Source: Candidatus Krumholzibacteriota bacterium
GTDB lineage: Bacteria > Krumholzibacteriota > Krumholzibacteriia > LZORAL124-64-63
Length of the DNA: 64,000 nucleotides
NCBI GenBank assembly: GCA_024275485.1
Contig: JAJRZA010000066.1
Span: 82,224-146,223 of the forward strand
Direction: 5' to 3'
The translations under genes were made by a program, and so were the position numbers. Under the pieces are notes generated by a model. The model searched no databases. It worked only from the letters and a program-made list of their open reading frames with translations, and was not told the origin of the DNA. Every line of letters begins with the position of its first letter. Position 1 is the first letter of the stretch. Shown piece after piece: positions 25,531-46,881 of the stretch.

Positions 25531-28500
25531 CTATTTGAGCAAGGTCATTTTGCGAGTCAGGGTGCCACTATCGGTGATCAACCGATAGAAGTACAGCCCG
25601 GAAGCGACGCGGCCACCCTGGTCGTTTTGACCACTCCAGGCCACTGTGTGGGTTCCAGCGGTTTGACGACCCTGCAACAGGGTGCGCACCAACCGGCCCT
25701 CCACATTGTAAATGCGCAGGGTCACGTCCTGGCGCGAAGGCAGGGAGAATTTGATCTCCGTGCGCGGGTTGAACGGGTTGGGCGCATTCTGGGCCAGCAG
25801 CAACTGACCGAACGGCAGATCGCCCACACCACTGGTTCCACCGATGGTGAAGCTGGCGGCGGAAACCGCCTCGGTGCTGTTGGCGGCCGAATCGTGAACG
25901 ATGATCTTCACCAGGTTGGCGGTACCCGGCAGTGCCGGCACCGTCCAGTCGTAGGAACCATTCATGGCGCCTTCGGCAATGACCTCGTCGTAGCTGGACC
26001 CATTATTGGTGCTCAGAAGAATCTGAACATGGACCACGCCGATGTCATCGCCATGATCCCAGGTGATGGCGGTTGTTGAGCCAATGCCATAATTTTCGCC
26101 GCCATTGGGGCTCAAGAGGTTGACCTGTGGAGCTTCATCGTCGGCAACCATGGCGAAACTGGAAAGCTGGAAATCGTCCACCCCGGCTTCCACCACCGAA
26201 CCGGATCCATAATCACTGGCTTGGAAACGGAGCTGCAGGTTGTCCCCCAGGTCGAGATAGTCGGCCAGAACGAAAGTCATTTTCTGCCAGGTGCGATTGC
26301 TGGCGTTGGTATTTTCCAGGTTGACCCAGGTACCATCCTGAGCCTGGGCCTGCACCACCCAACTGTCCTCATTGGGACTGAATCCGGTATCGTTGGTGTA
26401 CCAGCGATAATACTGGACTTCCAGGCCGCTGTAATTGCTGACGTCGAACACGGGAGACTGCAAGGTCGTCACACCACCATCGACGTCGTTTACACCCTGT
26501 TCACCGCCAACGGGGTCCTGACCCGTGATCCAGCACATTGTGCCGGGGTCACTGTGGTCATCCTCGGGGGAAACTTCGGTGCTCCCGTTGAACACGCCAA
26601 TGGGATCCACGTTGGTCCAGATACCGGTGCTGGCGGTATCTCCGGCCATGCCACCGGTCCAGTCGCTGGCATTCTCCATTTCAGTGGAATAAACCACCGC
26701 CGTTTGAGCAACCACAAAGCTGTAGGGGCTGTAGGGAGCACCCTCAGGTTCGATGCTGCTGTAGGCCAACAGGTCGGTTGCGGTCAGCCAATACTGCACC
26801 ATGGTACCATCGGGTTGTCCGGGAATGGAAACACGCCAGGTGTCGGTGGGACCTTCGGGCTGAGGTGTCAACTCGAAAGGACCGCCGGTGGCGCTGGAAG
26901 TATAATAGAAATGGGCTTCCTGAACACCACTGTAATCGCTGACCTTGTAGACCACGTCGTAAGGTCCAACCGTGTCGCCGGAGCTTTCGGGCATGATCAG
27001 CATTTCGAAAGCAGGCCCGGCAATGTCAACCAGTGCAAAGTCCACCACGGTTTCCATATCTTCCTCAATGACCACGCCGAAGGTGGTATCGGGAGCGAAA
27101 GAGGGATGGTGAACGGCCACATTGTAGGTGCCGATGGTGACGACGCTCTGGTACAAACCGTCCACGGTGGTCAGCAGGCTCAGGCCGGTGCCCAGAATGC
27201 TGACCGAAGCGCCGTCGATGGGAGTTCCGTCCGCCACATTGGTCACGCTGCCGCGCAAAGTGCCCTGGGCCTGGGGAATGACGGTTCGGTAGGTGATGCT
27301 GCGACCATCAACGAGGCTGGCAGCGCCATCAGGATACATCAGGTAGTAGGAGTAAAGGACCGCATCATTGCGATCTTCATTCTGGATTCCCACCGTGCCG
27401 TAACCGGTTTGCGAATCGGTGTGATTCACATCCTGGTAGTTCATGGTGATGATACCGTCACCAGTGTCGCCCGCGTTGTAGGCAGGGTCCTGAAGAATCA
27501 CTTCAAAGGTTTCGGAAACACCATAGTTAACCGAGTTGGCAACGTTGTCCCACTGGATGATGAGGCGGTGGTTGGCCACGTCGTACCACCAGTAGATGCC
27601 GCTTTCGCCACCCTGCTCGTGCAGATCATCCCAGTACACGGCAATCATGTTGTCGGGAGTACCGGGGCTGGGCAGGGTCCAGTTGCGATAACTTCGAATA
27701 TCGGTCCCACCCATGCTGATCCAGCCGTTGGAGCAGACGGTCATCTTGGTGAAAGTCTGACCGTAGTAGGTGAAAGGGAAAGGCAGGTCCACGATGACAA
27801 CATCATCTTGGTAGCGGTCAAAATCCTGCAGGCCCAGGCTGGTGCCCAAACCGCCGGAGGTGGGAGCGATTTCAACCCAGTCGTAGGCGGGAGCGAATTC
27901 GTAACCGGTGTCGGTGTTGTCGAAGGCAAAATAACCGTGATTATCAGGACCAACGGGATCAGTGCTGACAGCGCTTCCAACGGTGACCAGGATGGGCAAA
28001 CTTGCGGTGCCGCCTTCGTCAAATACCAGGTCCAGAGTCAAGGTGGCCACATGGCCGGGATAACATTCGATGCCGGCATTGAGCGCAAAGCTGTTGAAGG
28101 TGTTGGTGGCTTGGCCGCCGACGGAGATGGCGCCAAAAGTTCCGCTTCCGTCGGTGACGGTCAGCCAGCGACTGTTGGAACTGAGGGAACCGGTCACCCC
28201 GGAAGTGGCCAGATCACCAATATTATTGATGGTCACAGTCAAAGTGGCCGACTCACCGGGGTCGATGGAGCCGCCGGACAGGGCGAAGCCCTGAACTTCA
28301 CCCGAAGGACCACTGACAACCAAATCCACCAGGGAAGTCCAGGTTTCATTTCCATCGGTGGCCAGCAGTTCCAGGGGAACGACAGTGCCGCCGGCCACGG
28401 AAGCATCCAGCCGAACAACATAACTCTGTTGACTGCTTGCAGTGGCCCCACTGCCGATGAAGCCAAAGTCGGCCGATGCCTGGTCCACCGAGACCAAGGG

Positions 28501-30681: not shown

Positions 30682-31096
30682 AACGGCCTCCAATCCGGAT
30701 GGAATCCTGTTCAGGGGAAACCAATTCCGGTTTGAGCAAAATGTGAATGGAATTGGTTGACTCCAACTCCATGCAAGTGGCACCCATATTGATTTTAGAA
30801 AACCAAAAACCACCTATAGTCATTATATTATACCAGATGTCCATAGCAATTTGTCTTAGTTTATCTTCACATTTCTGCCACAATTCAGGAATTATTGACT
30901 CATAAAATAAGTATCCATAATATTTTATCACGCAAACGTTAACAATTAGCCCTAGAAGGGAACATTGATATTTTGGTATAATAAGGGTAACTAAACAATA
31001 GCGTGCAACATCCCGTTCGCTCATACGGAATGATTAATGTGGTTTGCCAGTAGACCGCAGGCAGCCGTTTTTTGCAGGAATATGAAAGGATCGATC

Positions 31097-32734
31097 ATGA
31101 AACAATTGTTCACCCTTGTCCTGGTCAGTGGACTTCTTTGCACCGGCTTCGCCTTTGCCGGTGTTTTGCATGTTCCTGGAGACTATGACCAAATCCATGA
31201 CGCCGTTCAGGCTTGTGCCGATGGCGATACCGTTTTAGTTGCAGCCGGGACCTACTACGACTGCACCCATCCCACCGAAGGCCCCGAGTCCACTCCCGCC
31301 TGCGTGATCATGAAATCCGGGGTAACCCTGCGCGGTGCCGGACAGGACCAGACCATCATTGACGCCCAGGTCCTCGGTCGTGGTATCTTTATCGAGAATG
31401 TCGCCAATTGCCGGGTGGAAAATTTGCGGATTACCCATGCTTTCGCCGACATTTACGGTGCCGGCATCCTGATGCGCCAAGTTGGGCCCACTGTTGAAAT
31501 CAACGATGTTCAGGTTACCGCCTGCACCGATGGCGGCATCATCTGCATCAACAACAGCAGCCCCACCTTGCGGCGGGTGACCATGGACAACAATGAAGCC
31601 AAACATGGCGGCGGATTGGCCATAGAGGAGAGCAGCAGTCCCCAGATCATCGACTGTATGGTGGACAACAATCAGGCTCCCGTCGGGGCCGGGGTTTTCA
31701 TTCGTCAGGATTGTGCTCCCATCTTCAGCGGCACCACCGTGCAAAACAACACCATCAATGCCGACTGGGGAAATGGTGGCGGAATCTCTGTTCAGAGCAG
31801 CACCCCTACCATCACCAACTGTATGATTATTAACAACACCGGCCTGGGATATGGTGGCGGAATCGCATTTTTGGATAATGCAGCCGGTCTGGTGGAAGAT
31901 AGCCTTATCAAGGGCAACAACGCAGCTTATACCTATAGCCAGGGCGGTGGTATTGCATCCAGCGCCAGCAACCCCACCCTGCGGCGTCTGGTGATTGTTG
32001 ATAACAGCGCCAGCGGCTTCTTTGCCGAAGGCGGCGGATTGGACATCAGCTTTACCCCTGCGCCCACTTTGGAGAACTGCACCATCGTCGGTAACTCGAC
32101 CAGTGGCAATGGATTTGGTGGCGGGATGTCCATCCAGTGGGGCGCCAATCCCATCATTGACAAATGCATCATTTCCGGTTCCACTGCCGGACAGGGTATC
32201 TATTGTACCAGTTCCACTCCGGTGGTCAGTTGCACCAACATTCATGGTAATGCCGGAGGAGACGAAATCTGCGGATCCGACAACGGTGGGAATTTTTCTG
32301 CTGATCCTTTGTTCTGCGGGACCGAAGGCCTTGAGTACAACCTCACCTCGGCGAGCCCCTGTGCTCCGGGGAACCATCCGAGTGGTGAGTGCAATGGCGA
32401 ATTGATCGGTGCACTGGCTGCCGGCTGTGGAGAATCTCCCACGCCGATGCCCGAGCTTGAAGGGTTGACCCTGGGCAATCACCCCAATCCCTTCAACCCC
32501 CGAACCACCATTTTCTTTGAAATGCCCCAGGCGGGCCCGGCCACCTTGCGCATCTACGACCTGGCCGGTCGATTGATTGAAACAAAAACCTGGGACAGTC
32601 TGCCCCAGGGACGCACTGAAATCCGATGGAACGGTCTCGATCGCCAGGGTCGTGCTCTTTCCAGTGGTGTCTACCTTTACCGGCTGGACACCCGTGACCA
32701 CTCCCTCAGTCGAAGGATGAGTCTGATCAGATGA
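31097..32734 (+). CDS. Secreted right-handed beta-helix protein with FlgD-like C-terminal domain
   Basis: Signal peptide MKQLFTLVLVSGLLCTGFAFA; repeated NNxAxxGGGLxI-type beta-helix coils; C-term NPFNPRTTIFFEMP...GVYLYRLDTRDHSLSRRMSLIR. Confidence 0.88.
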   Translation: MKQLFTLVLVSGLLCTGFAFAGVLHVPGDYDQIHDAVQACADGDTVLVAAGTYYDCTHPTEGPESTPACVIMKSGVTLRGAGQDQTIIDAQVLGRGIFIENVANCRVENLRITHAFADIYGAGILMRQVGPTVEINDVQVTACTDGGIICINNSSPTLRRVTMDNNEAKHGGGLAIEESSSPQIIDCMVDNNQAPVGAGVFIRQDCAPIFSGTTVQNNTINADWGNGGGISVQSSTPTITNCMIINNTGLGYGGGIAFLDNAAGLVEDSLIKGNNAAYTYSQGGGIASSASNPTLRRLVIVDNSASGFFAEGGGLDISFTPAPTLENCTIVGNSTSGNGFGGGMSIQWGANPIIDKCIISGSTAGQGIYCTSSTPVVSCTNIHGNAGGDEICGSDNGGNFSADPLFCGTEGLEYNLTSASPCAPGNHPSGECNGELIGALAAGCGESPTPMPELEGLTLGNHPNPFNPRTTIFFEMPQAGPATLRIYDLAGRLIETKTWDSLPQGRTEIRWNGLDRQGRALSSGVYLYRLDTRDHSLSRRMSLIR

Positions 32735-35700
32735 TGCAACGCAAAACTTTCGACCGCGCTCTGCAAGCGATTCTCATTCCGGCTGCCTTCCTGGCGGCCG
32801 GGGTGGGTTCCATTTTCGCTGAAGAACTCTCTATTGAAACACCCCAGAAAAAAGCCGCCAAAATTCTTCAGGCCAGAATCCAGGATGGCCAAAGCCATTT
32901 TACGATTTCGGCTACTGAACGGGATAACAGCCCCGCTGCTTCGGGTTTTAATTCCACTGCCAATTCTCGAAGTGTTTTGGTGGCTTTGCCTAAAAATGCC
33001 ACTGCATTCCAACTGCAGATCAACAATGCGGCAGGAATGGAAATTTCAGCTCCAGACGGTTTGATGATCATGCGCGGGCAACCTGTGGTGAGGGTTCAAA
33101 CCACAGGCTCATCCGACCAGAATGTGAATCTCACCGTCATTCACAACGGATCCTGGAATGCCGATTCTCTGGACCGACGTTTGACTTCATCGGCCATGAA
33201 CGCGGTGCTGGGTGGAACCCTTCCCCAACCGGCCATGACCACGGCAATTTCGGGTGGTTCCTACCTTGTTATTTATGCACCACCTTTTGCCGACGCCATT
33301 GCTCCGCTTGTGCAGTGGAAAACCCTCAAGGGCTTCAACGTGATCACAGTTTCGACCAGCGAGACGGGATCAACTCTCGAAGGAATAAAAAATTTCCTGC
33401 AAAATGCATACGATACCTGGGAGTCGCCACCGGAATATGTTTTGCTTGTGGGCGATGTGGATGAAATCCCAACCTACAATTTTTATAGCAATCCTTCCGA
33501 TCAACCGTATGTGCACCTGGATGGCGATGATTGGCTCCAGGATGCCATGATCGGCCGCCTGCCGGTGGAAAATGACTTTCAGGCACGCACCATGGTCAAC
33601 AAAATCATCAACTATGAGCGTTATCCCAATCTGGCAGATGATACCTGGCAGACCCGTACCTTGATGGTAGCCGGTTTATCCGGCTCCACCACTCCTGATC
33701 ACACTGTTGAATTCTGCAGCGATATACTGCAGGGCATTGGGTTTCAACCACCCACTAACGTTTTTTGCCCCCCTACTCCGGGTTTGATTGGAGCGGAATA
33801 TGTCACCGCCGCTCTTGATGCCGGAGTGGCCATGTTGGTTTACCGGGGTTGGGCTCAAGGCACTGGCGGCTGGGATCCCCCCGTTTACAATGTCGCAAAC
33901 ATACCCTCAAGCATTACCAACAACATGACACCGATAGTCATGAGTTTCGTTTGTCTCAATGGTGACTATTCCCTCAATGGCGTTGATTGTTTCGGAGAAG
34001 TTTTCGTTCGCCAGGGCACACCCGATGAACCTGGCAAAGGAGCGGTTGCTTTCATCGGCAACGGCGAGCACTGGTCCCACACCCGATATAATGATGCCAT
34101 GGCCATCAGTGTATTCGAGCGCATTTCCACCGGCGAGATCACCGATCTGGGTACCCTGCTGACCGCCGGCATGATTCGATTCATGGATTACTTCCCCAAC
34201 GAGATCAATGCCGGAGACAGTTCTTCCGGTGATTTGGAAGAATCGGTGGAATTCTACTTCCACATCTACAATCTCCTGGGTGATCCGAGCATGAAAATCT
34301 GGTTCCAGCTACCTGAAGATATCCAGGTAACCCATGCTTCAAATCTGGCAGCCGGAACAAACAGCCTCACCGTTTCAGTGGTAAGCGCCAACGATGCAAC
34401 TCCCATTGCCAACGCCCGGGTGGGCATTGTTCAAGGAGGAGTCCTGATTGGTAGCGGTATCACCCAGGATGACGGCTCCGCGGATCTGATGCTTACCCCA
34501 GTGGTTGCTGGCGCAGATATCTCGGTCACCGTCTCGGAAGCCGGTGTTGTACCTTATGAAGGTTCCATCAGTACCGGAACGGCCCCTGTTTTCTTGAGCG
34601 CCACGGGCTTGACTTTTGACGATGCCAACGGAAACAACGACCAAATCATCAATCCCGGCGAAGCCCTGGCCCTGACAGCAACTGTTCACAACAACGGCAG
34701 TATCTCCAGCGGTGAATTCAACCTGGCCATTTCCGAGGTCCGTGGTCCAGCCACCGCCGATCCGGGACAAATTGTCTTTGCCGATCTGGCTGGTGGAGCT
34801 TCAGGCACTGCTTCGTCAACTCTCGGTTTGACTATCGACGCTGATGCGCCCGATGGTGCGATTATCACCTTGCAGATGGAGGCCACCCGCACTGGTGACC
34901 AGCATGACTATTCTCTGGTACCCCTGACTGTTGCCGGTCCCGCCTGGGAAATTGTTGGCTTTGCCTCTGGTGACGGTTCAGCTCCCCGGTCCGGTCAGAC
35001 CACTGATCTGGCGCTAACTTTGCGCAACATCGGGAGCGTGGCTTCAGCCAGTTCATCCATCGATTTGACCCTTTTGACCGCAGGCGGCAGTCTCGGCACC
35101 CAAATTGCCAGTCTGCCCGCTTGTCCAGTTGGTGAGATGGTAACCACCGGAACTGTCTTTGACTTGACCATTGATGCGAACACGGCCACCAATACCAACC
35201 TGACTTTCGAACTTTCATTGGTGACCGCCGCCGGTTATGAAACCAATACCAACTGCGCCACCGTTGCTGGACCGGTTGATGTTTCCGCCCCGGTTGGACC
35301 CGATGGCTACGGGTATTATGCCTACGACAGTGCTGATTTCGACTATCCGGCCAGTCGCCCAGTTTATTCCTGGACCGATATATCGACGGAATTGGGTGGT
35401 TCTGGTACCAAACTGGACTTCCCAGTCGAAAATGAAGTTGTCTGGATGGTCGTCAACCTGCCGTTTGCCTTCCAATATTATGGTGAGTCATACACACAAA
35501 TGCGGGTTAGCGACAATGGCTGGATCAGTTTTGACCTTGGCTTTGATTTTGATTTCTATAACTGGACCATCCCGACACAGTACGGAGTTGACGCTTTGGT
35601 GGCGCCTTTTTGGGATAACCTGAATCCCGCGCCAGCTGATACCGTCAACGGCAGGGAGCCTGACGGTATTTATACTTTCAACGACGTGGACAACGGCTCT

Positions 35701-36561
35701 TTCGTCGTGGAGTGGAGTCGTCTTCCTCACTACAAGCCACAGATTCTGGGTTTCCAGACATTTCAACTGGTTCTTTTCAATCCTTTGGAGCACCCCACCG
35801 TCAGCGGCGACGGTGAAATGCTGTTTCTGTACCGGCAGGTGAACAACAATGACCACCTACGCATGTATGCAACCGTGGGCATCGAATCTCCCGACGGCAC
35901 CGACGGTTTGCAATTGAGCTACGGCAACATCAACGCTCCCGGCATGGCTCCATTGCAACCAGGCTTAGCCGTACGAGTGACCACCGAGCCCCCCGTAAGA
36001 GTTCCTTTTGCAGTTTCTGCCTTCACGGCAACCAAGGCAGATGGCCAAGTCACTTTTGAATGGCAAACCACCGACACTCGACCTGTGCTGGGATGGCACG
36101 TGGACAGATTCAGCAATGGCCAGCGTCAACGCCTGACTTCTTCAGCATTGCCTGCGGACAGCCGTAGCTTCACTTCTTCAGTTACCAATGATGAGGGTGA
36201 CTCCCGCTATCTGCTCACTGCCTTGCATCCCTTTGGCGTGACCAGCGAGCCTGGCGAAACAGTAGTGACGGCCTCTGGCGCCTTGCGCCTTGCCTTGCAT
36301 CCAGCCCACCCCAACCCAACAAGCGGCTCTACCACCATCGGGTTTTCCCTGCCCAGGGAAGCCAATGTTCGCCTGCGCGTTTATGACGTGGCCGGCCGAC
36401 TGGTGCGTACCCTGGTTGATGGTCGGGTTGGTTCGGGTGAAGGCATCAAAATTTGGGATGGCCGGCATGAGGGTGGCGGACAGGCTGCCGGTGGTGTCTA
36501 TTTCTATCGTTTGGAAACAGGCGGCCAGACTTTGACCCGAAAGATGATTCTGGTTCGATAG
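32731..36561 (+). CDS. Secreted gingipain-like (peptidase C25) protein with FlgD-like C-terminal domain
   Basis: YLVIYAPPFADAIAPLVQWKTLKGFNVITVSTSETGS; MSFVCLNGDYSLNGVDCFGEVFVRQG; C-term TIGFSLPREANVRLRVYDVAGRLVRTLVDG...GGVYFYRLETGGQTLTRKMILVR; ATGA overlap with previous gene. Confidence 0.85.
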   Translation: MMQRKTFDRALQAILIPAAFLAAGVGSIFAEELSIETPQKKAAKILQARIQDGQSHFTISATERDNSPAASGFNSTANSRSVLVALPKNATAFQLQINNAAGMEISAPDGLMIMRGQPVVRVQTTGSSDQNVNLTVIHNGSWNADSLDRRLTSSAMNAVLGGTLPQPAMTTAISGGSYLVIYAPPFADAIAPLVQWKTLKGFNVITVSTSETGSTLEGIKNFLQNAYDTWESPPEYVLLVGDVDEIPTYNFYSNPSDQPYVHLDGDDWLQDAMIGRLPVENDFQARTMVNKIINYERYPNLADDTWQTRTLMVAGLSGSTTPDHTVEFCSDILQGIGFQPPTNVFCPPTPGLIGAEYVTAALDAGVAMLVYRGWAQGTGGWDPPVYNVANIPSSITNNMTPIVMSFVCLNGDYSLNGVDCFGEVFVRQGTPDEPGKGAVAFIGNGEHWSHTRYNDAMAISVFERISTGEITDLGTLLTAGMIRFMDYFPNEINAGDSSSGDLEESVEFYFHIYNLLGDPSMKIWFQLPEDIQVTHASNLAAGTNSLTVSVVSANDATPIANARVGIVQGGVLIGSGITQDDGSADLMLTPVVAGADISVTVSEAGVVPYEGSISTGTAPVFLSATGLTFDDANGNNDQIINPGEALALTATVHNNGSISSGEFNLAISEVRGPATADPGQIVFADLAGGASGTASSTLGLTIDADAPDGAIITLQMEATRTGDQHDYSLVPLTVAGPAWEIVGFASGDGSAPRSGQTTDLALTLRNIGSVASASSSIDLTLLTAGGSLGTQIASLPACPVGEMVTTGTVFDLTIDANTATNTNLTFELSLVTAAGYETNTNCATVAGPVDVSAPVGPDGYGYYAYDSADFDYPASRPVYSWTDISTELGGSGTKLDFPVENEVVWMVVNLPFAFQYYGESYTQMRVSDNGWISFDLGFDFDFYNWTIPTQYGVDALVAPFWDNLNPAPADTVNGREPDGIYTFNDVDNGSFVVEWSRLPHYKPQILGFQTFQLVLFNPLEHPTVSGDGEMLFLYRQVNNNDHLRMYATVGIESPDGTDGLQLSYGNINAPGMAPLQPGLAVRVTTEPPVRVPFAVSAFTATKADGQVTFEWQTTDTRPVLGWHVDRFSNGQRQRLTSSALPADSRSFTSSVTNDEGDSRYLLTALHPFGVTSEPGETVVTASGALRLALHPAHPNPTSGSTTIGFSLPREANVRLRVYDVAGRLVRTLVDGRVGSGEGIKIWDGRHEGGGQAAGGVYFYRLETGGQTLTRKMILVR

Positions 36562-36595: not shown

Positions 36596-37777
36596 TTGCA
36601 ACTGGTACTGCTCTTATTGATGACGGTGACCGCCCTCGGTATGTGGGAGATGCTGCGACATTCCCGTCATCGCCGGCGGATTCCCATCCGAATCCATGTC
36701 AACGGCAGCCGGGGCAAATCTTCGGTGGCCAGGCTGATTGCCGCTGGATTGAAAGCCGGCGGAATTGCCGTGGTGGGGAAAACCACCGGCAGCGCGGCCT
36801 CGGTGATCAACACCGACGGCAGCGAAACCCTGGTTGAGCGTCGCGGTGGGCCCAACATCAAGGAGCAACTCGGCGTGTTTCGACAGGCAGCTCGACAAAA
36901 TCCCCAGGCTTTGGTCATCGAGTGCATGGCCGTGCGACCTGATTTGCAAATTGTCTGCGAACACTCCATCGTCAAGGCCACTCATGGCGTGATCACCAAT
37001 GTGCGGCCCGATCACCTGGAAGTGATGGGCCCCACCATGGATGATGTTGCCGCCAGTCTGGCGGGAACCGTACCGAAACGCAGTCATCTTTTCACGGCCG
37101 AAGATGTTTACAATGACTACCTGGCAAAATGTGCCCGCAAGGCCCGCAGCCAATTCACCTTCAGCCTGGCCAATGCTGTTTCGGACGAAGAGATGAGTCA
37201 CTTCTCCTACGAAGAATTCCCTGAGAATGTCAGCCTTGCCCTGGATGTTTGCCAGGCCATCGGCGTGCAACGAGATGAAGCCCTGGAGGGTATGTGGCAG
37301 GTCACTCCCGACGTTGGTGCCATGACCCGCTGGCGGTACAAGGAAAAGGTCCCGGGTCAGGGAATGCGGCAGGTGGAATTCATTAATGGTTTCGCCGCCA
37401 ACGACCCGGACAGTTACATCCGGGTTTGGAAGCGTCTTGAGCTGGACAAGCACCCGGAAAAGGTGATTTTGCTGATGAATATTCGCTCGGACCGGCAACG
37501 TCGTAGCAAGGATCTGGCACCCCTTTTCGGTCGAGAGTTGAAAGCAGCCTGCTACGTTTTGATCGGTGGAGAAACGGCTCTTTTTGCGGACATGATCAAA
37601 CGCGGCGGCGTGCCCGGCAATACGATCTACAATTTCAGTCACCTGGAAGCACCCGAACTCTGGGAGCGTTTGGTGGCCCTGGGACCTGACGGCTCACAGA
37701 TCATTGGTGTGGGCAACATCGCCAACATCGGTAGTCGTCTTCTGGACTATTTGCGGGGTAAGGAGACCGTGGTATGA
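36596..37777 (+). CDS. pgsB: Poly-gamma-glutamate synthase-type ligase PgsB/CapB
   Basis: IPIRIHVNGSRGKSSVARLIAAGLKAGGIAVVGKTTGSAASVI...RRGGPNIKEQ...ALVIECMAVRPDLQIVCE...GVITNVRPDHLEVMGPTMDDVA, Mur ligase-like; TTG start. Confidence 0.93.
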   Translation: MQLVLLLLMTVTALGMWEMLRHSRHRRRIPIRIHVNGSRGKSSVARLIAAGLKAGGIAVVGKTTGSAASVINTDGSETLVERRGGPNIKEQLGVFRQAARQNPQALVIECMAVRPDLQIVCEHSIVKATHGVITNVRPDHLEVMGPTMDDVAASLAGTVPKRSHLFTAEDVYNDYLAKCARKARSQFTFSLANAVSDEEMSHFSYEEFPENVSLALDVCQAIGVQRDEALEGMWQVTPDVGAMTRWRYKEKVPGQGMRQVEFINGFAANDPDSYIRVWKRLELDKHPEKVILLMNIRSDRQRRSKDLAPLFGRELKAACYVLIGGETALFADMIKRGGVPGNTIYNFSHLEAPELWERLVALGPDGSQIIGVGNIANIGSRLLDYLRGKETVV

Positions 37778-38247
37778 TTTACCAAAGCATCGGTCTGGGC
37801 CTGGTGGTATCACTGGTCTTCTCGGAAATCCTCGGATTGGCGGCCGGTGGCCTGGTGGTGCCTGGTTACATTGCCTTGTATCTGGATCAGCCCTTGCGAA
37901 TTTTGGGCACGATCCTGGCTGCACTGGTGACCTACGGATTCATTCGTATTGTGGGACGGTTTGTTCTGCTTTATGGTCGCCGTACCATGGTTTTCTGCGT
38001 TCTTTCAGGCTTCCTTTTTGGTTATCTGACTCGCTACATTCTCGTCTTCAACGATGCCATCAATCTGGGAATAGATGCCAGTGTGGTCCAATCCATCGGG
38101 TACATCATACCCGGGCTGATCGCCTACTGGATGATCCGCCAAGGTGTGGTTGAAACCCTTTGCACCATGATCATGGCCTCGTTCATCGTACGCCTGGCTT
38201 TGGTCACAGCCTATGGGGGTAAGCTCATTGAGCTGGCGATTGGATAA
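37774..38247 (+). CDS. pgsC: Poly-gamma-glutamate biosynthesis membrane protein PgsC/CapC
   Basis: IGLGLVVSLVFSEILGLAAGGLVVPGYIALYLDQP, multi-TM; 4-nt overlap with pgsB. Confidence 0.92.
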   Translation: MIYQSIGLGLVVSLVFSEILGLAAGGLVVPGYIALYLDQPLRILGTILAALVTYGFIRIVGRFVLLYGRRTMVFCVLSGFLFGYLTRYILVFNDAINLGIDASVVQSIGYIIPGLIAYWMIRQGVVETLCTMIMASFIVRLALVTAYGGKLIELAIG

Positions 38248-40243
38248 TCGGCGCAGATTCATCCTGATGTGTTTGGCTGTCAGCGCCTTACTGATGCAGA
38301 TGGCCCTGGACATGACCCGCACTCCGACCAAGCAGTGGGATTACGACCTCAAGCTGGAGGCCGCAACCCTTGCCGCGCGGGCCTTTGCCGCAGTCAGGGA
38401 GCATCGTGGTCTCGAAGGGGCCGACCTCGACCTGGTCAACGATCCGGCCGGCACGGGATTGATCGGACCTGAAATCAGTCCGATAACCAACGCCGCAGGA
38501 AATCTCGATGCCAAACTGACCAGTTTGAACCCCAACTTCGCAGCAGTGCTGGTGCAATATTTTCGTCGGGCGAATCTGAATCCCGGTGACTCGGTTGCCG
38601 TGGCTGTCAGCGGGTCTTTTCCCGGTATGAACATTGCCCTCTATGCGGCCATGGAAACCATGAACCTTCGACCGGTGGTGATCACCTCGGTGGGTGCTTC
38701 CAACTGGGGAGCCAACAGCCCCGAGTTCACCTGGCTGGATATGGAGACATTGTTTTTTGACAAGGGTATTTTCCACACACGCAGCCAGGCAGCCACTTTT
38801 GGCGGTGGCAATGACATGGGCCGGGGTTTGAGCCCCATGGGTCGCCAACTGGCCATGGACAGCATCACCCGCAACGGGGTGCAATTCCTTGAGTCGGAAA
38901 ATATCGAAAAAGCCATTTCCGGTCGCATGAATTTTTACGAAAAAGTTTCCCGCAATCGCCCCTATCGACTTTACGTCAATGTGGGCGGAGGTGTGGCCAG
39001 CCTGGGCAGCAGCCACAACAAATCCCTTTTGCCTGCTGGCCTGAGCTTCGACCTCGGAGCTCATAACTGGCCCCGCAAGGGAACTCTTATTCTCTTCTCG
39101 GAAAAAGGCGTTCCGGTGGTGCATCTGCTGCGCATCGCCACCTTGGCCCGTGAATTCGGCCTGCCTGTGTCACCCGATTTCCTGCCACTGCCTGGTGAAG
39201 GGGAAATCTTCGTGCGGGATATGTACCGATGGCCTTTGGCTGCCTTGTTCCTGGTCATATATTGCCTTGCCTGCGTCCTTATTCTGGCACCTGAAATCAG
39301 ACGGGGACTATTCAGTCGTCTTGGCCACAGACGCCCTGAAACTGTTGCGTTGTTGTTCTTGCTATTCCCTTTGTTTCTCGTGCCTTCGCCGACTCAAGCT
39401 GCTAATCAGTGGCGTCAGGTCAAAGCAATTCAAAGCGCTGGAGAAGTTTGCCTTTTTGATGGCAACCAGCAGTTCAGCTACCTTTTGTTGAATCCTGGAC
39501 TGCCTGTCGAATTCAAGGTGAACGGTCCAAGACGGGTCAAATTAGTGAGCCGTTACATTGATGGCCCCGGTGATCCGGATCGACAGGGATTCAGCGTCAC
39601 CATCAAACTCGATGGCAATGAGTTGCTGCGTAAAAGTTTCCGGTCCAAGGACAATCCAACCATGACCGTATGCACTCAAGGAACTGGAGTTTCAACCTTG
39701 CGAAGAGCATATGTGGATGTTCCCAAAGGCGCCCACATCATTGGGATCACTGGGCGAAGCAATGGCAGTGGCGACGTGGTTTGCCGCCTTTTCCGAGCCC
39801 TCAAACGGAAATCCACCGGGACGGTTCCCTTCGCGCCCGAAGGATATCTGGAATTGGCAACCTTGCAGTTTGAAAGCGGCAAGCAAAGCACCTACTACCG
39901 TTTCGAAGCAAATACACCTTTAACTTTCAATGTGACCGGCCCCACGAGCCTGCAATTGTTTACCCGTTTGGATTTTAAAACCGGAATGCTGGGCAGCCAG
40001 AAATATATCCTGGAAATTCTGTGCGATGGCAACCTCTGGCGCACTTTCCATTACGATGTCACCCGCTTGTCCAACGGTTTTTATCCTGAGCACCTGGGTA
40101 TCCTGCCTGGAACCCGCAAGAAACTTAGAATCCCTGTTCCTGATGGACGGCACAGATACGAAATTCGCTGTTTGCGACCGGAGAACTGCGGCATTGCCGC
40201 CCAGATTCGCATACCAAGGAAGGACCTGGAAAATCGCCCATGA
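38213..40243 (+). CDS. pgsW: PgsW-like poly-gamma-glutamate system protein with extra C-terminal beta-domain duplication
   Basis: N-term TM then AAATLAARAFAAVREHRG, PGDSVAVAVSGSFPGMNIALYAAMETMNLRPVVITSVGASNWGANSPEFTW; TM WPLAALFLVIYCLACVLILAPEI; two related C-terminal domains. Confidence 0.82.
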   Translation: MGVSSLSWRLDNRRRFILMCLAVSALLMQMALDMTRTPTKQWDYDLKLEAATLAARAFAAVREHRGLEGADLDLVNDPAGTGLIGPEISPITNAAGNLDAKLTSLNPNFAAVLVQYFRRANLNPGDSVAVAVSGSFPGMNIALYAAMETMNLRPVVITSVGASNWGANSPEFTWLDMETLFFDKGIFHTRSQAATFGGGNDMGRGLSPMGRQLAMDSITRNGVQFLESENIEKAISGRMNFYEKVSRNRPYRLYVNVGGGVASLGSSHNKSLLPAGLSFDLGAHNWPRKGTLILFSEKGVPVVHLLRIATLAREFGLPVSPDFLPLPGEGEIFVRDMYRWPLAALFLVIYCLACVLILAPEIRRGLFSRLGHRRPETVALLFLLFPLFLVPSPTQAANQWRQVKAIQSAGEVCLFDGNQQFSYLLLNPGLPVEFKVNGPRRVKLVSRYIDGPGDPDRQGFSVTIKLDGNELLRKSFRSKDNPTMTVCTQGTGVSTLRRAYVDVPKGAHIIGITGRSNGSGDVVCRLFRALKRKSTGTVPFAPEGYLELATLQFESGKQSTYYRFEANTPLTFNVTGPTSLQLFTRLDFKTGMLGSQKYILEILCDGNLWRTFHYDVTRLSNGFYPEHLGILPGTRKKLRIPVPDGRHRYEIRCLRPENCGIAAQIRIPRKDLENRP

Positions 40244-41802
40244 GTAAACCCTACGCGGCACCCAACAATCTGAAGGCCTTGGTTCTGGCTTTGCTGGTCC
40301 TGATGGTCCCGGGTCTGCTTAATGCTGCCGAACTGACGGCCCTGCGCCCACTGGGCCAAGTTGAGTTGGTGCCCATTGGTAAAAAGCAGAGAATCTACCT
40401 GACCGTTGGTGCCAAAACCGTCAAGATCCCCATCACCGGCCCCGGAGTCATCACCGGTTATGCACGGGTGCCCATGCCCACGGATGCACCAGTTGAGATT
40501 TCCGGCACTTTGAGCATGGTTGGTTTCCCCGGTGCACCCAATTCATTGCCTTTCAAATTCAAGCCATCGCGCCGAGCCTCATGGGGCGATAGCCGTTCCG
40601 GAGCCCCCAGTGGCGGCCGCAAGTTCACCGTGGATGTGCCCGATGGCGGTTTCACGCTTTCCCTCAGCAGCAGGGTTTCCACGGGCGATCCGATGCTGGT
40701 CATTTTGTATTACGAAGGTCCTGCACAGCCCAAAATGCCGGGTCTGGTTCCAACCGTAGCCTTGACTGCATCTCAGCCAAAAAAGAAGAAGAAAAAACCC
40801 GTATCCTTCCGCGGCAGTGGCAGTCTGGATGTCATCTACAACGACAACATCTTGAGCAACAGTCCCGGTTACAACGATGATTTCATTGGTGGCTTCTATC
40901 CCTGGAAATTTCTCAATGAGACCAAAGACGACATGATCATCGCCCCCGCTTTTGATATCGAAGCAAGAGCCAATTTCATCAGTTGGGGACAGTCCCGCCT
41001 CAAGTTCAAGGTCAAACGCTGGATGTACGCGCGCAACCCCATCAAGACCAACACCGACTTCCATTTCTATTATCGCCAGTACTTCGGCAAGAGGCAAAGC
41101 CTGGAGCTCTATTTTCATTTTGCTCCCGAGCAGTACATTCGGCAGCTGTCCGACCGCTCCCCCCTGGACGACCCCGACGCCCCCATCAACTGGACCCAAT
41201 TTCGTTTCCAGCGCAATGTCTGGAACGCAACTTGGCGCCAGAAAATCAGCAAAAAACTAAGCGCCAAGATTTTGTACGAAGAGAACTACCGCTACTACAA
41301 CCAACCGTTCATCGAGAACGATATTTCGGCCTGGGAAATCCGTGGCAATGTGACCTACAAAATGAGCCGGATCCTGACCTGGAACTTTGACTACAGCTAC
41401 GAAGATGCCCAGGCTCGCGCCATTGATGCATGGGATGAATTGCCCATCAACTCAAACAATTCGGATGCATCCTATGCCCGTGATTTATATCGCATCGGCG
41501 TGGATATCAGACACAAATCCCTGAAGAAAATAGTGGACAGGGTGAGCCTCAGTTTCCTGTTCATGGATTATTACTACACCACAAACAAGACCCTGGCGGA
41601 TGATCCTTATCACGCCGGGCGTCGAGACATGTTCTACAAGGGCACAGTGGAAGTCCGGCGCAAGCTGGCCGAGCCATTGACCCTGAAGCTGGCCGTGCGG
41701 CGCACCGAGCGCGTCGTCGACTCCCCCTGGGAGGGCGACATCACCACGGACAAGGATTTCACCCAATGGCTGTACTGGTTCAGCCTGAACTATCGGTTCT
41801 AA
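40240..41802 (+). CDS. Outer-membrane beta-barrel protein with N-terminal periplasmic beta domain
   Basis: Signal peptide ALVLALLVLMVPGLLNAAE; alternating-polarity strands with many aromatics; C-terminal Phe (FTQWLYWFSLNYRF); ATGA overlap with pgsW. Confidence 0.75.
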   Translation: MSKPYAAPNNLKALVLALLVLMVPGLLNAAELTALRPLGQVELVPIGKKQRIYLTVGAKTVKIPITGPGVITGYARVPMPTDAPVEISGTLSMVGFPGAPNSLPFKFKPSRRASWGDSRSGAPSGGRKFTVDVPDGGFTLSLSSRVSTGDPMLVILYYEGPAQPKMPGLVPTVALTASQPKKKKKKPVSFRGSGSLDVIYNDNILSNSPGYNDDFIGGFYPWKFLNETKDDMIIAPAFDIEARANFISWGQSRLKFKVKRWMYARNPIKTNTDFHFYYRQYFGKRQSLELYFHFAPEQYIRQLSDRSPLDDPDAPINWTQFRFQRNVWNATWRQKISKKLSAKILYEENYRYYNQPFIENDISAWEIRGNVTYKMSRILTWNFDYSYEDAQARAIDAWDELPINSNNSDASYARDLYRIGVDIRHKSLKKIVDRVSLSFLFMDYYYTTNKTLADDPYHAGRRDMFYKGTVEVRRKLAEPLTLKLAVRRTERVVDSPWEGDITTDKDFTQWLYWFSLNYRF

Positions 41803-41811
41803 GGAGTTCCC

Positions 41812-44265
41812 ATGCGTTCGCGCCGTATTGACCTGAAAATAATGCTCTTCGCCCTGTTGGCCCTTTTAGCCTGGGCTGGTTGTGCCCAACAAGATCTTTA
41901 TGAGCCACCGGGAGCCACCTTCACTCGGGTTGGCAGTGTTCCTTTGCCCAGTGAAAACGAAGGTGTGGCCATCATGGGCCGGTACGCTTTTGTTGCCGGC
42001 GGCCAGGCTGGTTTGCACGCTATCGACTTCACCGACCCAACTCATCCTGTGCTCTTGCAAACCCTCAATACTCTCAAGTACAGCGAGAGTGTCGAAGTGG
42101 TGCGCACCTTTGTGGACCACCAGTTGCAGGACATCGCCCTGGTTGTCGAAGGCACTGAAGGCATCACCAGTTACGACATCACCAATCCCTCGGACATGGT
42201 CGATTTCAACAGCGGAACCACCGCCGTTTTTGGCAATCGGGTTTTTGTGGAACAGCCTGAAGATCCGGAAGAACCGTTCATTGCCTTCCTGGCCGAGAGT
42301 TGGAAAGGCGTCCGCATTTTTGAGTCCATCCCCGCCCAACCCGGTATCCTGGCCTACAACGGAGTCTTTGTCGAAACCCAGGGCTATGCCGAAGGAATAG
42401 AGGTGCGCAACGGTTTTGCTTATGTGGCTGATGATGAAATGGGTCTTGCCGTTTTGGACGTACGCATCCTAGACCTGGACGCCGTAGAACTGGTCAGCTG
42501 GGCAGACAGCCCGGGCGAAGCCCTGGACGTGGTACTTGAAGGCGACTACGCCTATGTGGCGGACGGGTACGAAGGCCTGGCGATTTTCCGGATCAACGGG
42601 CCGGATATTCCGGTCCGTTTGACCAACCTTGACCTCGATGGCAAATGTAGGGCGGTGGCTGTGCGGGACAACCTCTGCGTCCTGGCCGCCCAGGGTAGCG
42701 GAGTGCACTTTGTGGATGTCCGGAATCCCGCGGAACCGGTTTTTCTGGGTCGCATCCTCACCGAATACGCCATGGATCTGGCCATCAGCAGCGAGGGTTT
42801 CATCCTGGTCGCGGATCGTGACGAAGGTCTTGTCATCCTCCAGGGTCCCCGTGAATTTATCGATAATACTCCCCCTGCTCCCGTGCTGAGTCTTTTCAGC
42901 GAAAGCTTCGGTGTCGGCGCAGTTCGCCTGAGTTGGTATGCCACAGGTGATGACCGCATGGAAGGTATTGCCAGCAGTTTTGAAATACGCTATGCAGAGT
43001 CACCCATCATTGACGAGACTACCTGGGATGCAGCCACGGTGATCCCCGATATTCCGGCACCCGAATTGCCCGGTACAGCCATGAGCTTTGTCGTCACCGA
43101 TATGACCTCTGGCGTGAAACACTTTGCCATTCGTTGCAGTGACAACGCCGGCCATATTTCCTCACTCAGCAATCCCGTCAGCGCCGCACCCGGTGAAGGT
43201 ATCCTGCTCCTGGAACCCAACCTCGATATTCAAGGTGGCACCACCAACGACATCTACACCTACGAAGTGACTTACATTTTCTCCGATGATCCCACCGTGT
43301 ATCAGGTTCTCATCGATGGAAACCCTTTTGACCTGAGTGTGGTGGAAACCAAATTCGGTGAAATCCTTTATCGATACCAAACCCAATTGCCCTCGGGCAC
43401 TCATACCTACTCCTTCAACTTTGAAGTGGAAGATCCCGGAGTTTCCCCCGCTACAACTGAACAGGCCAGTGGGCCGGTGGTAGGCAGCATCGTTTTTGTC
43501 ATGGGCAGTTCCGACACCGACGATATTGATAACCCGGATTTCGAACCTGGACGGCAAAGTGACGAATGGCAGCACACTGTTGTCTTTACCGACAGTTTGG
43601 TAGCCGCCGTAACAGAAGTTACCCAGGGCCAATGGGCCGACCTCGGGCTGACCGACCCAAGCCATTTCAATGGCACCAATCGGCCTGTGGAAACGCTCAC
43701 CTGGCACCAGGCTGTGCAATACTGCAATGCCCTTTCAGCTGCGGAAGGCCTTACCAGCGCTTACAGTATCAACGGGGATCAAGTCACCTGGGACCATGAT
43801 GCCGATGGTTGGCGGCTGCCCACGGAAGCCGAATGGGAATGGCTGTGTCGCAGCGGGGCCGGCACAACCTTTGCCGGAGGACCCTTGACCGGCCGAGTCT
43901 GCAACTTGGACCCCGTACTGGATGCCATGGGTTGGTACTGCGGAAGCACCTTCGACGGGAATCCATCCACCAGCGACACCGGGCTGAAAAACCCCAACAG
44001 CCGCGGCTTGTTGGACATGCACGGCAATGTCTGGGAATGGTGCTGGGATTGGTACGGCGATTATCGCACCATCGACACCGATGGTGACGGCGTCGTGCTC
44101 GACCCCATGGGCTCCATCAGCGGCACACAGCGCGTGATTCGCGGCGGAAGCTGGTACGGAGGCAGCGAAGATTGCCGCAGTGCCAACCGTGAATCGCGAA
44201 TCACCGATTCGGCCGACGATGTTGTGGGAATGCGGGTCGTTCGCACCATTTTCATCACGGATTAA
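41812..44265 (+). CDS. Lipoprotein with LVIVD-type repeats and C-terminal formylglycine-generating-enzyme-like (SUMF1) domain
   Basis: Lipobox ALLAWAGC; repeats GFAYVADDEMGLAVLDVR / DYAYVADGYEGLAIFRI; SUMF1-like VTQGQWADLG...RLPTEAEWEWLCRSG...LDMHGNVWEWCWDWYGDY...RVIRGGSWYGG. Confidence 0.88.
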   Translation: MRSRRIDLKIMLFALLALLAWAGCAQQDLYEPPGATFTRVGSVPLPSENEGVAIMGRYAFVAGGQAGLHAIDFTDPTHPVLLQTLNTLKYSESVEVVRTFVDHQLQDIALVVEGTEGITSYDITNPSDMVDFNSGTTAVFGNRVFVEQPEDPEEPFIAFLAESWKGVRIFESIPAQPGILAYNGVFVETQGYAEGIEVRNGFAYVADDEMGLAVLDVRILDLDAVELVSWADSPGEALDVVLEGDYAYVADGYEGLAIFRINGPDIPVRLTNLDLDGKCRAVAVRDNLCVLAAQGSGVHFVDVRNPAEPVFLGRILTEYAMDLAISSEGFILVADRDEGLVILQGPREFIDNTPPAPVLSLFSESFGVGAVRLSWYATGDDRMEGIASSFEIRYAESPIIDETTWDAATVIPDIPAPELPGTAMSFVVTDMTSGVKHFAIRCSDNAGHISSLSNPVSAAPGEGILLLEPNLDIQGGTTNDIYTYEVTYIFSDDPTVYQVLIDGNPFDLSVVETKFGEILYRYQTQLPSGTHTYSFNFEVEDPGVSPATTEQASGPVVGSIVFVMGSSDTDDIDNPDFEPGRQSDEWQHTVVFTDSLVAAVTEVTQGQWADLGLTDPSHFNGTNRPVETLTWHQAVQYCNALSAAEGLTSAYSINGDQVTWDHDADGWRLPTEAEWEWLCRSGAGTTFAGGPLTGRVCNLDPVLDAMGWYCGSTFDGNPSTSDTGLKNPNSRGLLDMHGNVWEWCWDWYGDYRTIDTDGDGVVLDPMGSISGTQRVIRGGSWYGGSEDCRSANRESRITDSADDVVGMRVVRTIFITD

Positions 44266-44293
44266 TCTGGTTAGTCCCAGAAAAAGGACGACA

Positions 44294-45388
44294 ATGGCAG
44301 AGAAGAAACGCTTCACCTTCATCGACGAATTCCGGGGCCTCATCGGCGTGATGATGGCCCTCGGGCACAGCAACTACTATTTCAATTCGGCCTGGCTGAG
44401 CCTGGACCCGCTGGACCCGTTTTTTGACAATCTGCCCCAGTTCCTGCTGCGGTACATGGGTTACCTGTGTGCGCCTGGCTTTCTGATGATGAACGGAGCC
44501 ATGATCTACTACGTCTTTTGGCGACGTTTGAAAAATGGGGAATCGACTTGGTCCGCCCGGTGGGGATTTATCCAACGTGGATTGTTCCTGATTGTGGTGC
44601 AACTGGTCTGGGTCAACGCATCCTGGAGTGGCTTCTCCCGATTACGATTGGGTCACTTCGGCATCATCGCCACCATCGGCACCAGCATGTTGATTCTGAT
44701 CTGGATTATCACCTGGAAATGGCAATGGCGGGCCTTGACCGCCGCGGTACTCTTCCTGGTTCATCCCTTGTTGTTGAAGATTCCTTACGACATGGACGGA
44801 CCCGCCCACTATTTGATGCAGTTCTTCGTGGACTCGGGGAACTTCAACAAATACCCGGTATTGCCCTGGCTGGCCCTGGCCATTGTCGGCAGCGTCATGG
44901 CCCACTTCTGGTTTGAAGCCTGGTCGGATCCCGACAAGCGTGCCCGCAACACCGTGCTGACAGGCCTAAGCCTTATCGGCCTGGCCTATTTGGTGCGCTT
45001 CGGGCAGGGATTCGGCAATATATTTGCCTGGGATACTTTCTTCAGTTATTCCTTCTTCCTGGTTCAGAAATACCCACCCAGCCTGGCCCATCAACTTTGG
45101 CTCTCCGGCACGGTCATTTTCCTGGTTGGAGTATTCAGTTATGTCGATCAGCGCAGCCCGATTCTGCGCCCCCTGGCCAAAGTTGGACGGGTGCCGTTGT
45201 TCTTTTATGCCGTTCACATTCCCATCTTGGCCATTTTCTCCAAACGCCTTGGGTTCTTCTACCATGAAGGGGGCGTGAAGGAGTCGCTCATCGGCTGGGT
45301 GGTTTTGCTGGCCGTGATGTACCCGCTGGCCATTTGGTTTGGTGGAATCAAAAAACGTTCTCGCGCCTGGATTATCCGCATGATATAG
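44294..45388 (+). CDS. Multi-TM acyltransferase-like membrane protein (DUF1624/HGSNAT or acyltransferase-3-like)
   Basis: FTFIDEFRGLIGVMMALGHSNYYFN N-term; about 10 hydrophobic segments; VGRVPLFFYAVHIPILAIFSKRLGFFY. Confidence 0.75.
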   Translation: MAEKKRFTFIDEFRGLIGVMMALGHSNYYFNSAWLSLDPLDPFFDNLPQFLLRYMGYLCAPGFLMMNGAMIYYVFWRRLKNGESTWSARWGFIQRGLFLIVVQLVWVNASWSGFSRLRLGHFGIIATIGTSMLILIWIITWKWQWRALTAAVLFLVHPLLLKIPYDMDGPAHYLMQFFVDSGNFNKYPVLPWLALAIVGSVMAHFWFEAWSDPDKRARNTVLTGLSLIGLAYLVRFGQGFGNIFAWDTFFSYSFFLVQKYPPSLAHQLWLSGTVIFLVGVFSYVDQRSPILRPLAKVGRVPLFFYAVHIPILAIFSKRLGFFYHEGGVKESLIGWVVLLAVMYPLAIWFGGIKKRSRAWIIRMI

Positions 45389-45534: not shown

Positions 45535-45591
45535 TGCAGCCTTGGGTGGGATTGTCAGAACCTGGCAGAACCGCAGTAGAGAAGGTTGGCT

Positions 45592-46881
45592 GTGAAAAAA
45601 ATTGTCCTTGGATTCCTGATCATTTCCCTTGCTTTTGGGATTTGGATTAAGGTTTTTTCACCGAAGGAAAACCAAGCCATGTCCAGTTCCAAGGCCCTGC
45701 GTATTATTTCTCACGAGCAGTTGCTGACCCGGGTCAACCACAAGGAGGAACCTCTGCGCCTGCGCACCGCAACCGATGTTTTGCCGGGTGGCTACGCCGC
45801 AGCCATGATCCCTCTGATGATTGACTGGCAAGCCAGCGACATGAGCTCTGATAACGGCTTCGTGATCATCCACAACCTTAATCACGGCGGCAATCCCGTG
45901 GACGGCACCACCGTCTTGTGTTCTGCCAAGGTTCCTCTCGATGGAGTTGAAGCAGTTGAGTTCACCTTTTTGCCGCTGGATAAAATCGGCAAACAGGGTT
46001 TGATCCAACATGGACAGCTGCGTTTTATTTTTGCCGAGGATAGTCCGGTGTTGCTGCTGAATTATGGCGATGAATCCATGGGCAGCGATTGCAACATCCA
46101 GGACCTTGTTTTCAGCTGGGAAGCCTGGCGGGCTCCCGACGCCGGATACGATGTGAAAACCGGCATGAATCCCGCAGCCTATTTATTGAGTCCCCGTGTT
46201 TTTTCGGGACCCACCCGTTTTTTGGATGACGCCCTTGGAAAACGTGATTGGTTCAGCTACCGCCTGCGCCTGCCTGATGGTCGGCGGGGACTGGCAGAAT
46301 TATTGCGCACAAACCTGGCCCTGTGCGATGGAGTAGCCCGTCACACCGTGTCCAAAATTCTGGAGCAGAGTGAAGAACAATGGGTCAGTCAAGCACCTGC
46401 TGGCGTGCTGCACAACGAGGAAGCCCTTGCGGATTGGCAAACCCTGCGGAATGTCGTCGCTCCCCACCCTGATACGGGCGATAGCCTGATCAATCTTCCC
46501 GATGAAAACCTGGCCTATCAAACTCTCCTACGTTCCTGCGCCACCATGGCCCTTTACACCATCAACGTGGCAGTGGACCGGCTGGTGGCCTCGGGCCATA
46601 CCGACGGCTTGAACCCCGACTACCGGATGTTGCCTGATCTTGGTCAGCAGGAGCAGTGGATGACCGATCTGGCCGAGACCGACCTGAAAGGAATTTTCTT
46701 GAGGGCACCCGTCATCATGCGCTACCTGCGCGCCAATCCCCAGGCCTTTCCCAAAAATATTCCTCATCAATTGGAAAAGGCTGGACTTTTGGCCATTGTC
46801 CATGGCAAGCCCCATAAGCTGCACTACCAACTTGAAGGTACTACCCCTTATGGAACCCTTCAGGAAAACCTGATCAAATAA
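45592..46881 (+). CDS. Hypothetical membrane-anchored protein
   Basis: GTG start; N-terminal anchor VKKIVLGFLIISLAFGIWIKVF; no family recognised. Confidence 0.65.
   Translation: MKKIVLGFLIISLAFGIWIKVFSPKENQAMSSSKALRIISHEQLLTRVNHKEEPLRLRTATDVLPGGYAAAMIPLMIDWQASDMSSDNGFVIIHNLNHGGNPVDGTTVLCSAKVPLDGVEAVEFTFLPLDKIGKQGLIQHGQLRFIFAEDSPVLLLNYGDESMGSDCNIQDLVFSWEAWRAPDAGYDVKTGMNPAAYLLSPRVFSGPTRFLDDALGKRDWFSYRLRLPDGRRGLAELLRTNLALCDGVARHTVSKILEQSEEQWVSQAPAGVLHNEEALADWQTLRNVVAPHPDTGDSLINLPDENLAYQTLLRSCATMALYTINVAVDRLVASGHTDGLNPDYRMLPDLGQQEQWMTDLAETDLKGIFLRAPVIMRYLRANPQAFPKNIPHQLEKAGLLAIVHGKPHKLHYQLEGTTPYGTLQENLIK

Follow-up and report, generated by a model that had tools for sequence, protein, structure and literature searches.

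A PgsB-PgsC-PgsW operon with a predicted outer-membrane barrel as a candidate polyglutamate exporter of diderm bacteria

An operon in a Krumholzibacteriota genome probably directs the synthesis of gamma-linked polyglutamate, or of a close amide-linked relative, and its export through both membranes, to judge from its genes and from predicted structures. PgsB, PgsC, and PgsW, jelly-roll domains, and a putative outer-membrane barrel together form a conserved cassette, which sequence comparison places in at least seven diderm groups, and the operon is, on the same grounds, a real, conserved, and diderm-specific extension of the PgsBC system. The initial annotation had proposed an operon for polymer export across two membranes; the gene identities, the cassette, and the predicted barrel speak for this proposal, but not for its treatment of the lipoprotein and the acyltransferase as core parts or for the suggested acylation of the polymer. 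Poly-gamma-glutamate is well studied in Bacillus, which has one membrane; the cassette probably shows how the polymer crosses a second, and its conserved barrel and bridge provide named genes for the study of two-membrane polyglutamate export.

The operon lies in a window (the whole stretch of 64,000 nucleotides that was analysed) that is part of a 3.98-Mb Krumholzibacteriota MAG. The nearest named relatives include the Krumholzibacteriia MAG L032, whose PgsW is 84% identical to that of the window. The host genome encodes a glutamate racemase, and a PHROGs search gave no useful match. The features of the operon and its upstream neighbour are:

32731-36561, + strand: C25 (gingipain-like) peptidase with a type IX sorting tail (PF01364, 184.8 bits; TIGR04183, 39.8 bits)
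36596-37777, + strand: pgsB, Mur-ligase-type poly-gamma-glutamate synthase, TTG start (TIGR04012 equivalog, 418 bits; cut-off 222.7)
37774-38247, + strand: pgsC, inner-membrane partner (TIGR04011, 123.3 bits; cut-off 96.45; PF14102, 115 bits)
38213-40243, + strand: pgsW reading frame, 676 amino acids (TIGR04332, 315.9 bits; cut-off 100; model positions 3-306 of 307)
38228-39322, + strand: PgsW domain proper, predicted as transmembrane helix, periplasmic alpha/beta domain, and transmembrane helix (model residues 1-365, mostly pLDDT above 90)
39416-39802 (approximate), + strand: predicted jelly-roll domain 1, fused to the PgsW C-terminus (Foldseek, CBM35/CBM6)
39845-40222 (approximate), + strand: predicted jelly-roll domain 2 (hhalign to domain 1, 99.4%; lower model confidence)
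40240-41802, + strand: outer-membrane barrel gene, 520 amino acids (predicted signal peptide, N-terminal jelly-roll domain, and 14-stranded barrel)
40336-40734, + strand: N-terminal jelly-roll domain of the barrel (hhalign to the two copies in the pgsW frame, 98.2% and 98.5%)
41812-44265, + strand: lipoprotein with LVIVD repeats (PF08309, 94.9 bits) and an FGE-like domain (FGE-sulfatase, PF03781, 106.4 bits)
44294-45388, + strand: HGSNAT-type membrane acyltransferase (PF07786, HGSNAT_cat, 49.8 bits)

In the raw sequence, pgsB and pgsC overlap by 4 nt, pgsC and the pgsW frame by 35 nt, and pgsW and the barrel gene by 4 nt (ATGA); gaps of 9 nt and 28 nt separate the barrel gene from the lipoprotein gene and the latter from the acyltransferase gene. 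The reading frames, overlaps, and gaps originally given for these six genes are exact to the base. This layout is not a product of chance, because the gene order is kept across phyla. PgsW has two candidate starts, ATG 38213 (35-nt overlap with pgsC) and TTG 38228 (20-nt overlap), of which the latter is likelier because a start of the LSWRLD type is common to its relatives. PgsA/CapA (PF09587) is absent from the operon, but a PF09587 protein is encoded elsewhere in the genome (contig 11); the earlier statement that no PgsA-like gene is recognised applies to the operon.

PgsB, PgsC, and PgsW all exceed the curated NCBIfam cut-offs, in agreement with the families first assigned. The ligase active site of PgsB, chosen beforehand as a point on which the proposal could be refuted, is kept across its relatives: the P-loop residues G37, R39, G40, K41, and S42 (GxRGKS) as well as E109, D139, and H140 are invariant in 59 of 59 sequences, and K62, R297, D299, and R300 show little or no variation. 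Profile searches with PgsB, PgsW, and the barrel protein against solved structures returned nothing useful.

TIGR04332 spans only residues 18-324 of the product of the pgsW frame; what follows is another module, made of jelly-roll domains that neither Pfam nor NCBIfam recognises. A structure model built from 59 sequences (mean pLDDT 83) consists of a transmembrane helix, a confident periplasmic alpha/beta domain, a second transmembrane helix, and two beta domains, of which the latter is modelled with low confidence. Foldseek matched the beta domains to CBM35/CBM6 jelly-rolls (E about 1e-4) with modest TM-scores of 0.46-0.49 on the CBM; matches of the full model were mostly to jelly-roll domains, none naming the alpha/beta fold. 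The two copies in the pgsW frame and the one in the barrel protein are homologous, as judged by profile alignment. The periplasmic part postulated earlier is thus present in the predicted structures but had been misplaced, as it comprises the C-terminal half of the pgsW frame and the N-terminus of the barrel protein. The majority of relatives have the jelly-roll pair as a secreted protein of its own. In the genus of the window and in some further relatives the pair is joined to PgsW, and in two loci (L064 and L085) it is joined to the barrel. The occurrence of fusions in both directions suggests that PgsW, the jelly-roll protein, and the barrel work in physical contact.

The barrel protein matches no Pfam or NCBIfam family. 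Structure prediction, which had been recommended as a check, gave a porin-like 14-stranded barrel with a signal helix: the model of the 520 residues, built from 27 sequences (mean pLDDT 86.8), comprises a signal helix (9-22), the jelly-roll domain, and 14 strands, and the C-terminus reads NYRF. Signal peptide, even strand number, and C-terminal aromatic residue, the first two as predicted, are features of porins. The best fold matches are the monomeric 14-strand porins OmpG (E 1.3e-8) and CymA, from which the barrel differs by its low identity (about 11%), its additional N-terminal jelly-roll domain, and its operon linkage to pgsBCW; a further significant match is 4y25, which we take to be PgaA, the outer-membrane exporter of poly-N-acetylglucosamine. 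When inward faces are assigned from alternating hydrophobicity and charges are compared among 26 members of the family only, inward-facing residues have a mean net charge of +5.5 and the remainder of -11.7, with +10 inside the barrel of the window. A net-positive lumen, as predicted, might fit a polyanion channel, but the lumen charge is not positive in 4 of the 26 members, three of which are from Planctomycetota. Second, diverged barrel copies occur apart from the main locus in two genomes (G006:C28:10509-11423 and G096:C159:9513-10373).

Iterated HMM searches of six-frame translations from 46 loci of named genomes and 28 Krumholzibacteriota regions recovered the order pgsB-pgsC-pgsW-jelly-roll-barrel in Krumholzibacteriota, Cloacimonadota, Fermentibacteria, Eisenbacteria, and Zixibacteria. 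The cassette is partly seen in Omnitrophota, where the contig begins within PgsW, and in Neomarinimicrobiota, where the contig ends after the jelly-roll; it is rearranged in Planctomycetota (jelly-roll/barrel, B, C, W, jelly-roll). Across phyla, the surveyed loci keep no other outer-membrane gene in the cassette. The barrel is not universal among carriers of pgsBCW: it is absent next to these genes in loci of Myxococcales, Desulfobacterium, Negativicutes, Atribacteria, and KSB1, whose genomes contained no convincing copy when searched in full (one marginal match in Desulfobacterium, E 2e-4), and from the pgsBCW-carrying Krumholzibacteriota genera g2 and g5. The pgsBCW genes of these two genera (loci L097, L098, L099, and L100) are divergent, and the jelly-roll protein is likewise missing. 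A MAG labelled Verrucomicrobia (L033; QNAI01000148.1) has a pgs cluster near those of Krumholzibacteriota, with a PgsW 80% identical to that of the window, and is probably mislabelled.

Among 80 Krumholzibacteriota genomes, PgsW is present in 28 and the barrel family (A3) in 26; 23 genomes have the two together, and 49 lack both (Fisher p 2.9e-12). Contig breaks plausibly explain the three genomes with the barrel only, because the matches there are incomplete: the jelly-roll by the barrel is truncated in G047 and G067 (at the start of the contig in G067), and in G052 the barrel itself is reduced to a short fragment. PgsW and the barrel are each encoded by 102 of the 118 Cloacimonadota genomes (both in 98, neither in 12) and lie on one contig in 94 of the 98 with both, with a median gap of 1.17 kb, which is room for the jelly-roll gene. 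The co-occurrence across two phyla rules out that the barrel is a mere neighbouring porin. For both phyla combined, the Fisher p of 5e-33 overstates independence, since the genomes within a phylum are related, and recurrence across phyla is a stronger argument for the link than the p-values.

The genes downstream of the barrel have a narrower distribution. Every Krumholzibacteriota barrel locus with enough contig continues with the lipoprotein bearing the FGE-like domain and then the acyltransferase, and in twelve loci the set is complete, with the C25 peptidase present as well. Both downstream genes are absent from the loci of Cloacimonadota, Zixibacteria, and Planctomycetota; exceptions outside Krumholzibacteriota are a lipoprotein in Eisenbacteria (L058) and its LVIVD half alone in Fermentibacteria (L036). 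Because they are missing from the loci of other phyla, the lipoprotein and the acyltransferase are lineage accessories and not core parts. Of the neighbourhood originally expected to be conserved, the barrel is indeed kept beside pgsBCW within and beyond the phylum, but the lipoprotein and the acyltransferase are all but restricted to Krumholzibacteriota, which rules out the whole 8.8-kb operon as a universal unit.

The lipoprotein and its relatives share a conserved lipobox cysteine followed by a DLYE-type segment. The motif of the FGE-like domain, GGSWYGGSEDC, contains only the second cysteine, a pattern also found in the relatives. As formylglycine-generating enzymes have two catalytic cysteines (as in human FGE), of which one is missing here, the lipoprotein is unlikely to be such an enzyme, and canonical FGE activity is unsupported. 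Poly-gamma-glutamate lacks hydroxyls, and its one amine is at the chain end, which weakens the polymer-modifying role initially given to the acyltransferase; acylation of polyglutamate is unsupported and chemically doubtful. The enzyme may cap the amine at the chain end, or its substrate may be a different molecule of the envelope. A PF07786 acyltransferase also follows pgsBCW in a barrel-less MAG labelled Pseudomonadota (L051: 10183-11301), apparently an independent link. Downstream of the acyltransferase, the window encodes a 431-residue protein of an unnamed family (45586-46881), which recurs only in a close relative (L032/L086).

The C25 peptidase gene ends 34 bp upstream of pgsB. In all Krumholzibacteriota barrel-type loci with both matches and in five Cloacimonadota loci (L040, L042, L045, L052, and L054), the C25 match ends 29-133 bp before the pgsB match; by this criterion of position, the peptidase gene is part of the conserved cluster. 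A second large C25-like protein with a type IX-type sorting tail lies on the flank of the cluster (25531-30813, - strand), and an SprA-like type IX secretion translocon is encoded elsewhere in the host genome (G000 contig 15: 13797-18860).

Association and predicted structure lend good support to the export reading. The analysis establishes the identity of the genes, the conservation of the cassette, the homology of the domains, and the predicted folds, and from these we infer polymer identity, docking, and transport. PgsB would join glutamate using ATP, and PgsC, going by its family, would pass the growing chain through the inner membrane. PgsW, which sits in the inner membrane with its alpha/beta domain in the periplasm, would fill the place of Bacillus PgsA/CapA, and its two periplasmic jelly-roll domains might dock on, or pass the polymer to, the homologous domain of the barrel, whose 14 strands would enclose the pore through which the polyanion leaves. 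The lipoprotein and the acyltransferase may serve as lineage-specific accessories in surface retention or envelope modification. Favouring export are the family scores of PgsB, PgsC, and PgsW and the intact PgsB active site, the recurrence of the cassette across phyla, the porin-like predicted fold with the polysaccharide exporter PgaA among its matches, the positive charge predicted to face into the barrel, the homology of the three jelly-roll copies and their fusions to PgsW and to the barrel, the co-occurrence of PgsW and barrel, the DAPI-stained PGA matrix reported around Cloacimonadota (PMC13082233), most of which carry the cassette, and the glutamate racemase; the diderms with B-C-W and no barrel, and the four family members with a non-positive lumen, count against it.

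It is possible, though not probable, that the lipoprotein, the acyltransferase, and the C25 peptidase constitute a surface-protein module of type IX secretion that merely shares a transcript with the pgs genes. The sorting tail of the peptidase, the SprA gene, and the lack of lipoprotein and acyltransferase in Cloacimonadota loci would fit such a module, but all three genes are present in every sufficiently long Krumholzibacteriota barrel locus, the peptidase precedes pgsB also in several Cloacimonadota loci, and a PF07786 gene follows pgsBCW in L051. We consider it rather unlikely that PgsB-C-W makes a different product, such as another gamma-glutamyl or amino-acid polymer or a polyglutamylated envelope component, which the barrel exports or inserts. 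PgsB is a relative of Mur ligases whose substrate is unreadable from sequence, and the acyltransferase would suit a product other than plain polyglutamate. The capBCA genes of Francisella, which are without a proven polymer, are not needed for the capsule of strain LVS, and are disputed as capsule genes (PMC4688374), point in the same direction and also weigh against the export reading. A different product is opposed by the equivalog-level scores of PgsB and PgsC and by the DAPI-stained PGA reported in Cloacimonadota (PMC13082233). That the barrel and jelly-roll domains only anchor or scaffold the polymer at the outer membrane while it exits elsewhere seems quite improbable: the resemblance of the jelly-rolls to carbohydrate-binding modules is consistent with polymer binding, and any export by barrel-less diderms with B-C-W has to take a different path, but the barrel is tied to PgsW, has a predicted 14-strand porin fold, and is the sole outer-membrane gene kept in the cassette across phyla.

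The preferred reading, export through the barrel, sets the operon between two kinds of known systems: it works like synthase-dependent polymer secretion but is, by descent, of the poly-gamma-glutamate synthase kind. It shares PgsB and PgsC with Bacillus PgsBCA(E)/CapBCA(DE) at equivalog level and in the same order, but PgsW replaces PgsA/CapA, a jelly-roll protein and an outer-membrane barrel are added, and the host has two membranes. Compared with the "poly-gamma-glutamate system protein" of TIGR04332 (PgsW), which matches the first ~325 residues, the reading frame of the window adds two jelly-roll domains and is coupled to the barrel. The synthase-dependent systems (AlgE/AlgK, PgaA, and BcsB-BcsC) have the same plan of inner-membrane synthase, periplasmic bridge, and dedicated outer-membrane barrel, and the CBM-like periplasmic domains recall BcsB; yet the window encodes an amino-acid ligase instead of a glycosyltransferase, and the likeness is functional, with no sequence relation shown. 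Pfam detected neither a glycosyltransferase nor a TPR scaffold domain in the operon proteins. Francisella is likewise a diderm with capB-capC and a third protein, CapA, annotated as a poly-gamma-glutamate system protein (PMC5362203).

Capsule surveys report poly-gamma-glutamate genes in most phyla, with no outer-membrane part modelled (PMC5542703). A 2026 study reports Cloacimonadota embedded in a matrix that was identified as PGA from DAPI staining in a mixed culture; it gives the operon as CapB, CapC, and CapA in the Gram-positive organisation (PMC13082233). In the Cloacimonadota loci surveyed here, which may not include the genome of that study, the gene after pgsC is instead PgsW, followed by the jelly-roll and barrel genes. 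The open-access literature searched names no outer-membrane exporter for poly-gamma-glutamate, and on this basis an outer-membrane part of the PgsBC system appears undescribed. The chances seem about even that at least seven diderm groups share a new class of exporter, which would carry an amino-acid polymer across the whole envelope by means of PgsB-C-W, a periplasm-spanning chain of CBM-like jelly-rolls, and a dedicated 14-stranded barrel whose periplasmic side bears a further such domain; if so, amino-acid polymers would have their own equivalent of the machines that secrete cellulose, alginate, and PNAG. Since most Cloacimonadota carry the cassette and the group abounds in anaerobic digesters, a large source of the polymer may have gone unrecognised. 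In two Negativicutes loci (L071: 6704-7225 and L073: 8862-9389), a small secreted protein of about 175 residues follows pgsBCW and may be an accessory part of their own.
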